Part shown: piece after piece, positions 61,388 through 64,000 of the stretch
Position numbering within the stretch: the first letter of the stretch is position 1
How the letters are laid out: the number at the start of each line of letters is the position of its first letter
Origin: Fibrobacter sp.
Lineage (GTDB): Bacteria > Fibrobacterota > Fibrobacteria > Fibrobacterales > Fibrobacteraceae
Assembly: GCA_024398875.1 (NCBI GenBank)
Contig: JAKSIJ010000010.1
Span: 1 to 64,000, forward strand
Reading direction: 5' to 3'
Length of the DNA stretch: 64,000 nucleotides
The notes under the pieces: generated by a model
Database searches by the model: none
What the model was told of the DNA's origin: nothing
Seen by the model: only the letters and a program-made list of their open reading frames with translations
Program-made: the position numbers and the translations under genes

Positions 61388-64000
61388 TTATGCAAAATTG
61401 TATTCGTCGGTAATGTCTTCTTCGTCCTTGTTGTACATCCAATACTGATTTACGTAAGCGTATTCATCTTCGACCAGATTGATCTTCATGAAGTGCTTAG
61501 TTTCCAGGTAATGGAATAGGAGGGCGTCGTTCTCGCTGAGGGCATCCACCATGGGGGAGCTCACCACGAGAGTGACTTCGCGGAGGTGTCCCTTGTTGTA
61601 GGCGCGAGACATCCAGCGGTCGATCATGCCGAGGGTCGCTTCCAGCGTGACGATGCGTCCGCCGCCACGGCAAATGGGGCAGAGTTCCGTCTTTTCGGTC
61701 ATGAGGTTCACGCGGACGCGCTTGCGGGTCACTTCCATGACGCCAAAGCGGCCGATGGGGGCCGGGCTGATGGGAGCCTTGTCGCGACGGATGGCCTTGC
61801 GGAATTCCTGGAAGACTGCTTCCCGGTCACCATCGGATTCCATAGGAATGTACTTGATGATGATGAGGCCGCCCACATCGCGAAGGCGAAGTTGCTTTGC
61901 GATTTCGCGACAGGCGTAGAGGTTCGTTTCCAGAATGGTCTTGGCAGAATCCTTGCCTGCGTTCCGAGGCATGTTCACATTGATGGACACGAGGGCTTCC
62001 GTCTGCTCGATGGTCAAACTTCCCTTGTTGTAGAGGGAAATGCGACGCTGCAGGGAGCGGGAGTAGTCGTTCTCAATCTTGAAGTGCTCGAACAGGCTTT
62101 CGTTCTTGTTCCAGAGTTTCACCTTGTTCAGCTTGTCCGGAGAAAGCACCTTCAGGTAATCCCGGAGGGCGATGTATTCGTCCCGGTTGTCGATGTACAC
62201 ATAGTCGGTGTTTTCGCCAAAGTATTCGCGGACCGTCTGCTCGATGGAATCGGATTCCTCGTAGATGCAAGTTTCGGCAGGTTGGTTTTCGAAGTTGAAC
62301 TTCGTCTGTTCCCATTTGCTTTCCAGTTCGCGCATCTGCTTACTGATTTCAAATTCGGATTCGCTCAGGCCGTTGGTGCGGACGATGTAACCCACGTCGC
62401 GACCCTTGAGGCGGCGAACCACCTTCTTGAATTCACGACGCTTGGCGGGGTCTCGTTCCCGTTTGGAAACACCGATGAAGTTGGTGCCCGGCATGCAAAC
62501 CAGGAATCGGCCTGCAAAGCTTAAATGGGTCGTGAGGCGAGCGCCCTTGGTGCTGATGGGTTCCTTTACCACCTGCACCATGATTTCCTGGCCTTCCTTG
62601 AGAATCTTGTCGATGGAGATTTCCTTTGCCACTCCACCCTGGTCATCATCATCGCCGTATTCCTTGCTCAGAAGTGCGTCGCGGTCCATGGCGTCTTCCT
62701 GATGGAGGAAGCCGGCCTTTTCCATGCCGATGTCGATGAAGGCTGCCTTCAGTGCGGGGAGCACCTTCTGGACTACGCCCTTGTAAATGTTTCCGAGGAC
62801 GCGGGTAGAGGAAACGCTTTCCACCACAAGTTCCGCAAGTTCACCATCTTCCATAATGGCGATGCGCTTTTCGTAAGGTGTCTTGCTGATGAGGATTTCG
62901 CGCTTGCACTTGTTGCGGCCACGTTCGTTCTTCAGGCGCTTCGGTGGGCGGATGCCCTCGTCGTCAGCAAAGTTGTAAAGGTCTGTGATGTCTTCCTTGT
63001 CGGAATTGTACATCCAGAACTGGTTCACCTGGGCGTGGTCGTCTTCGATGAGTTCCACAGACATCTGGTGCTTGAATTCCAGATAGTGGAGCATTCTCGC
63101 TCTATCGTTTACGAGAACCTGCACCATGGGGGAGCCGACTACCAGCGTGACGTTCTTCAGGTTGCCTTTTGCGTGGGCACGGGCCATCCAGCGGTCAATC
63201 ATGCCGAGGGTGGATTCCAAGGTGGCGATGCGCCCGCCGCCACAGCAGACGGGGCAGAACCTTGTCTTGCCGGCATCGTGCATGCGAGTGCGGGTAATCT
63301 CCATGAGGCCAAACTGGCTGATGGGCGAAGGAATCACATCCCCCTTATCGCGGCGGGCCGCCTTGCAGAATTCCTGGAAAACCGTATCCCGGTCCGCATC
63401 CGTCTCCATGTCAATGAAGTCCACGATGACGATTCCGCTCACATCGCGCAGGCGCAGCTGTTTCGCAATTTCGCGGCAGGCGTCGATGTTTGTCTCCAGG
63501 ATGATTTTGCCCTGGTCTTTTCCGTGAACCTTCGGACCCGTGTTCACGTCGATGGACATAAGGGCTTCCGTCTGCTCGATGACCAGGTTTCCACCGCGGG
63601 GCAGCGGAACTTGGCGCTGGAGGGAACGGGCGTAGTCGTTTTCGATTTTGAAGTATTCGAAAAGGCTTTCGTTGGAACTCCACAGCTTTACCTTGTCCAG
63701 CATGTTGGGGGCAATCTGCTTCAGGGTGTCTCTGATGGAGAAATATTCGTCCCGGTTGTCGATGTACACGTAATCCGTGTCGTCATTGAAGTATTCGCTG
63801 AGGGCCTGCTCCATGGAACCTGCTTCTTCATAGATGCAGGTTCTGGCCGGCTGGGCTGCAAAATTGTCCTTGGTGGCAAACCACTTGTCTTCCAGAGTCC
63901 GCATCTGCTGCTGGAGGCTTTCCTCGCTAGCACTCATGCCCTCGGTGCGCACAATGTAGCCCACATCGCGCGCCTTGAGGTGGTTCACCGCCCGCTTGAT
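61388..64000 (-). CDS. RNase E/G-family protein, tandem fusion with inactive second copy (partial, 5' end outside window)
   Basis: The frame is open to the window edge, so the N-terminus lies outside. Numbered from the GTG at 63988, copy 1 (to about 335) lacks only its start. It has SIDVNTG with metal-binding Asp147, VDFIDM with Asp190, and the Zn-link CPVC (245-248). After a short linker (about 340-360), copy 2 (about 361-866) starts afresh with [15 protein letters not shown], then S1-domain and full catalytic parts. Its catalytic Asp codons are changed: SINVN at 670 (Asn) and IIIKYIPM at 712 (Lys). CPIC (770-773) is kept. In RNase E both Asp residues (E. coli D303 and D346) are needed, so copy 2 is almost surely inactive. 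No frameshift or stop separates the copies. pta follows after 14 bases. Confidence 0.93.

Follow-up and report, generated by a model that had tools for sequence, protein, structure and literature searches.

An in-frame tandem fusion of RNase E/G in Fibrobacter with complementary losses in its two copies: a probable covalent asymmetric dimer

A gene containing two full RNase E/G copies in a single open frame was found at the end of a 64,000-nucleotide stretch of Fibrobacter sp. DNA (contig JAKSIJ010000010.1, positions 1 to 64,000; hereafter the window). The losses of the two copies are complementary: each half lost what the other kept. The encoded protein is probably an asymmetric RNase E/G dimer in one covalent chain, with a single composite active site to which copy 2 contributes the S1 domain and 5'-sensor and copy 1 the catalytic domain.

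RNase E/G initiates mRNA decay in many bacteria. In ordinary RNase E, two identical subunits are joined by a Zn-link, and the resulting dimer has two composite active sites where the subunits meet. The need of RNase E for at least a dimer, and the pairing of RNA module and active site, have been argued mostly from crystal structures. With a fused dimer in which one site is broken from both sides, the pairing question could be settled simply, by mutants of a single polypeptide.

Structure of the fused gene

The fused gene had 1031 codons on the minus strand and ran from an ATG at contig position 64483 to a stop codon at 61388-61390. The gene overran the window end; its part within the window was 61388-64000, and the ATG and the ~160 codons with which copy 1 opens, S1 domain included, lay outside. 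The first-pass annotation had described two RNase E/G copies in one open frame, and this held once the gene was extended past the window to its start: the frame was open across both copies, and the Pfam RNase_E_G model matched twice.

Copy 1 comprised residues 1 to ~506 (in-window part 62966-64000) and copy 2 comprised residues 524-1031 (61391-62914), with a linker of ~17 residues between them (approximately 62915-62965). Aligned to E. coli RNase E, each half contained the S1, 5'-sensor, RNase H-like, DNase I-like, Zn-link, and small domains. The Pfam RNase E/G model (PF10150) scored 275 and 253 bits for the two halves, against a cut-off of 25.5, and TIGR00757 scored 749 bits on the fused protein, in two stretches. 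In profile searches the halves matched RNase E/G only.

Complementary residue losses in the two copies

Residues were compared in E. coli numbering across the 20 fusions found in the genus survey described below. Copy 1 kept D303, N305, and D346 in 20/20 fusions. In this genome its DNase I-like catalytic domain lay at approximately 63266-63622 (alignment to E. coli RNase E 279-400), with the D303 equivalent at 63548-63550 (MSIDVN) and the D346 equivalent, Asp355, at 63419-63421 (IVDFID). In copy 2 the D346 position was Lys in every fusion (here Lys877, 61853-61855, IIIKYIP), and the D303 position was Asp in 11, Lys in seven, and Asn in two, including this genome (61979-61981, VSINVN). All four codons were exactly where the first-pass annotation had placed them. 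Its statement that copy 2 lacks both metal-binding aspartates was true here and of nine of the 20 fusions in total; across the set, the loss of D346 was universal and D303 was still Asp in the other 11. The catalytic loops of copy 2 also tolerated insertions, deletions, and varied residues.

The S1 domain showed the opposite pattern. Phe67 was kept in copy 2 of all 20 fusions (here Phe592, 62708-62710), and 65/65 single-copy relatives from across the phylum also had it. It was gone from copy 1 in 20/20, replaced by Val in 18, Ser in one, and Ile in one (here Val71, codon 64271-64273, outside the window). F57, F67, and K112 were all present in copy 2 of every fusion, and all conserved positions of the copy 2 S1 domain (here approximately 62534-62809) were kept. 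Copy 2 had K106 in 20/20 fusions and copy 1 in 9/20, and K112 was kept in copy 1 of 18/20. Both copies retained the 5'-sensor residues R169 and T170; the R169 equivalents here were Arg179 in copy 1 (63947-63949) and Arg702 in copy 2 (62378-62380). The Zn-link cysteines (Cys404 and Cys407 equivalents) were likewise present in both copies of all 20 fusions. In this genome they formed CPVC in copy 1 (Cys410 and Cys413, 63245-63256) and, as had been noted from the window, CPIC in copy 2 (Cys935 and Cys938, 61670-61681); the proline of CPxC was variable in some copy 2 sequences (CSVC).

Identity to single-copy Fibrobacter genes followed the same division. Copy 1 was 51% identical in S1, 59% in the 5'-sensor, and 79% in DNase I; copy 2 was 93%, 93%, and 74% identical in these domains, respectively. 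Single-copy genes had 129 near-invariant positions; of these, copy 1 was altered at 29/58 in S1 plus 5'-sensor and at 7/45 in DNase I, and copy 2 at 0/58 and 18/45. The interaction between copy and module gave a Fisher p of ~5e-9, a value that serves as a guide, with positions taken as independent. The Pfam S1 model placed copy 2 and a single-copy gene above its cut-off and copy 1 below it.

An AlphaFold2 model of the whole fusion reached a pLDDT of 50 on a shallow alignment, too low to read from it how the two halves are placed. Copy 1 alone reached a pLDDT of 60, and its DNase I and S1 parts matched solved RNase E domains with target TM scores of 0.94 and ~0.8; this model was read by domain only, whole-chain TM scores being meaningless. 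In prediction, then, the S1 domain of copy 1 is altered and probably still folded. Copy 1 may keep some RNA binding, because R169/T170 and mostly K112 are kept and its S1 domain is under some purifying selection and predicted to be folded.

Selection on the two copies

Pairwise dN/dS was computed per domain by the Nei-Gojobori method; some synonymous distances exceeded 1 and are uncertain. No computable value, in any domain of either copy, reached 0.35. For copy 2, dN/dS was 0-0.08 in S1, 0-0.05 in the 5'-sensor, and up to 0.27 in DNase I; for copy 1, it was 0.05-0.13 in DNase I and 0.07-0.34 in S1/5'-sensor. This shows that both copies are under constraint, strongest on opposite modules, and drift of a dead copy was ruled out. 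The first-pass annotation had held that copy 2 is maintained rather than decaying. The low dN/dS, which is the mark of purifying selection on copy 2, its unaltered conserved S1/5'-sensor positions, and its presence in 20 species all bear this out.

Distribution and inheritance of the fusion

In a survey of 80 Fibrobacter genomes, 77 had an RNase E/G match. The fusion was present as one open frame of 1033-1078 aa in 20 of the 77 (about a quarter), and no second RNase E/G was found beside it in any of these 20 genomes. Of the remaining 57, 56 had one match and one (G151) had a frame-broken single gene. The same fused frame was carried by 12 GTDB contigs. The nearest named record was JAKSIK010000013 (Fibrobacter sp. 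Horse_feces19), whose encoded protein was 99.5% identical. Genera of the family other than Fibrobacter had single RNase E/G genes, as did the order. Assembly error as the origin of the fusion, an objection raised with the first description of the gene, was ruled out by the occurrence of the same fused frame in 20 genomes. Relatives with separate single-copy genes do exist, and Asp346 was found in copy 2 of none of the fusions.

Single-copy Fibrobacter RNase E/G sequences had ~82% identity to copy 2 and ~70% to copy 1, with all catalytic and S1 residues intact. A single-copy gene (L082 and G151:C29; L177, L187) was split in two overlapping frames in a genome where no other RNase E/G was found; the split may reflect a frameshift, a sequencing error, or a true loss.

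Copy 1 sequences formed one clade (support 100/100), and copy 2 sequences grouped more weakly (79/90), so that a single duplication is the simplest reading of the sequences. It looks like an in-place event, because the same neighboring genes flanked RNase E/G in several fusion and single-copy genomes. The fusion did not track the species tree: in gyrB and rpoB trees, which are single-gene trees with long outgroup branches, fusion genomes were scattered among, and adjoined, single-copy genomes. Since copy 1 nevertheless has a single origin, the scatter probably reflects replacement of the gene from one species to another, or else loss on several occasions. Fusion and single-copy alleles were also seen in close gyrB relatives (L003, L115-L132), several with the same flanking genes, which suggests allele exchange between Fibrobacter species at the RNase E/G locus.

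Other RNases and earlier reports

RNase Y and RNase J gave no match above cut-off in eight genomes, seven of them Fibrobacter (G000, G012, G029, G033, G003, G005, and G030) and four with the fusion. RNase E/G may thus be the only initiator of mRNA decay of a known type in Fibrobacter. Because the fusion genomes contained no other RNase E/G and the eight genomes no RNase Y or J, the fusion should, judging from gene content, be active. No report of a tandem RNase E/G was found in the open-licence literature, and a 2011 survey gave the protein of the Fibrobacteres/Acidobacteria group at 511 aa only (PMC3071783).

Proposed working of the fusion and rival explanations

In the probable scheme, an in-frame tandem duplication of RNase E/G in Fibrobacter would have produced a two-copy chain, and one of its two composite sites would then have been given up from both sides. 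The copy 2 side of the abandoned site would have lost catalytic D346, now Lys, and the copy 1 side would have lost the base-stacking Phe67 of S1 together with many other conserved S1 residues. One site per chain would remain, at which RNA held by the S1/5'-sensor of copy 2 is offered to the copy 1 DNase I-like domain. The linker, which is short, and a Zn-link to which each half contributes two Cys would hold the two halves together.

We infer that the two halves of one chain pair with each other and that S1 works across the dimer, on the active site of the partner. In RNase E, S1 and the 5'-sensor move as one body (PMC2631609), and the cross-dimer pairing of S1 is drawn from this movement rather than from coordinates. 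According to published papers the 5'-sensor and the active site of RNase E belong to different protomers, and RNA held by one monomer is cut by its partner (PMC2631609; PMC3997798). F67 and K112 of S1 have been proposed to sandwich the uracil at position +2 (PMC8522691). Were S1 confined to its own subunit, no complete site would be left in either half; as the fusion genomes offered no second RNase E/G, and neither RNase Y nor RNase J exceeded the cut-off in the eight genomes tested, the pattern favors a cross-subunit site. On balance we would read the fusion as a natural complementation experiment, in which one of two symmetric composite sites was broken from both sides to give a single-site asymmetric enzyme.

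It is unlikely, though worth weighing, that copy 1 is instead a self-sufficient nuclease with relaxed sequence preference, whose S1, for want of Phe67, has ceased to recognize the +2 uracil. Copy 2 would then be a tethered arm, RNA-binding or regulatory, that brings in substrates but is no part of the active site. In favor of this, no catalytic residue is missing from copy 1, which also has the 5'-sensor pair and, in 18/20 fusions, K112, and its S1 fold is still predicted and evolves under constraint. Against this stand the uniform loss of F67 from copy 1, set beside its retention in 65/65 single-copy enzymes, and the change of half of the conserved S1/5'-sensor positions, which is easier to understand if copy 2 took over at the active site. 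Moreover, RNase E requires at least a dimer for full function (PMC3997798). The first-pass annotation had proposed that the dead copy supplies an RNA-binding or assembly platform in cis, which is right in part. The RNA-binding role stands, copy 2 being most likely the RNA-binding half; an intact enzyme joined to a platform does not, since the S1 domain of copy 1 is degenerate in every fusion. That degeneracy was missed because the domain lies outside the window.

A role of copy 2 chiefly in assembly (Zn-link, dimer, and tetramer contacts) or in keeping a regulated state, with its RNA-binding residues kept for folding only, is improbable. The small domain, the dimer-dimer contact in RNase E, was among the least conserved parts of copy 2 (66% identity to single-copy genes and 70% among copy 2 sequences) and S1/5'-sensor the most conserved (93%), the reverse of what such a role would lead one to expect. 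The Zn-link cysteines, invariant in both copies, fit an assembly role, as does the dependence of RNase E activity on tetramer formation (PMC2631609). Hardly credible, finally, is a copy 2 that is a decaying duplicate, or a fusion that arose in assembly: the indels and varied residues in the copy 2 catalytic loops are what decay would produce, but the frame is open in 20 species, copy 1 has a single origin, dN/dS is far below 1 in both copies, and the S1/5'-sensor of copy 2 is nearly unchanged.

If the covalent asymmetric dimer is the true reading, the pattern of losses would attest independently to an RNase E in which the catalytic domain of one subunit is served by the partner's S1 module, and the two halves of the fusion would be inseparable. 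An enzyme that lost either half should be defective, so that the fused state would be hard to exit except via gene replacement. As the search of seven Fibrobacter genomes turned up neither RNase Y nor RNase J, these fiber-degrading gut bacteria may depend on one asymmetric enzyme to start mRNA decay.

Comparison with known systems

Each half of the fusion resembles the full catalytic region of RNase E and RNase G (E. coli RNase E catalytic half, PDB 2bx2; NCBIfam NF008689, ribonuclease G), which work at the dimer interface as is proposed for the fusion. RNase E and RNase G differ in being homo-oligomers with two equivalent sites per dimer, whereas the fusion halves are unequal, one being without D346 and the other without F67. 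The single-copy RNase E/G genes of other Fibrobacter are direct relatives, with the same flanking genes in several genomes; they differ in having one copy with all key residues intact. Catalytically inactive D303R/D346R mutants of RNase E have been used for RNA-bound crystals, and like copy 2 they carry a basic residue at 346; the mutant binds RNA without cleaving it (PMC6202311). These are laboratory mutants, whereas the Lys of copy 2 is natural, fixed in 20 species, and located in one half of a fusion.

A functional analogy can be drawn to the long form of RNase Z in eukaryotes (tRNase Z-L/ELAC2), also a tandem-duplicated homodimeric nuclease with complementary loss, in which one half keeps the active site without the binding arm and the other keeps the arm without the metal ligands (PMC3714273). 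tRNase Z-L differs in its unrelated metallo-beta-lactamase fold, its eukaryotic host, its pre-tRNA substrate, and its order of halves, which is reversed relative to the fusion (binding half first, catalytic half last). The fusion is not a member of that family, as its halves match RNase E/G and not the metallo-beta-lactamase RNase Z; it is RNase E/G by descent and resembles tRNase Z-L by logic. It may thus offer a bacterial parallel, in which a homo-oligomeric nuclease became an asymmetric single chain via duplication and complementary loss.

Additional observations

Other members of the class (L163-L167; G044, G045, G049, G051, and G047) had a second, long RNase E/G paralogue beside an RNase G-like gene. 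The long paralogues were open frames of 675-869 aa that ended in a basic, low-complexity C-terminal tail, and most also had a variable insert following the SIDVN motif; each resembles an RNase E that carries a degradosome-type tail. They were considered as similar pseudoenzymes and rejected, as their catalytic, S1, and Zn-link residues were all intact.

In nearly all Fibrobacter genomes (e.g., L140 on G029:C1 and L145 on G000:C77) the RpoB model match was split near model positions 548-552; the ~90-100 codons that separate the two segments point to an insert in RpoB specific to the Fibrobacter lineage.
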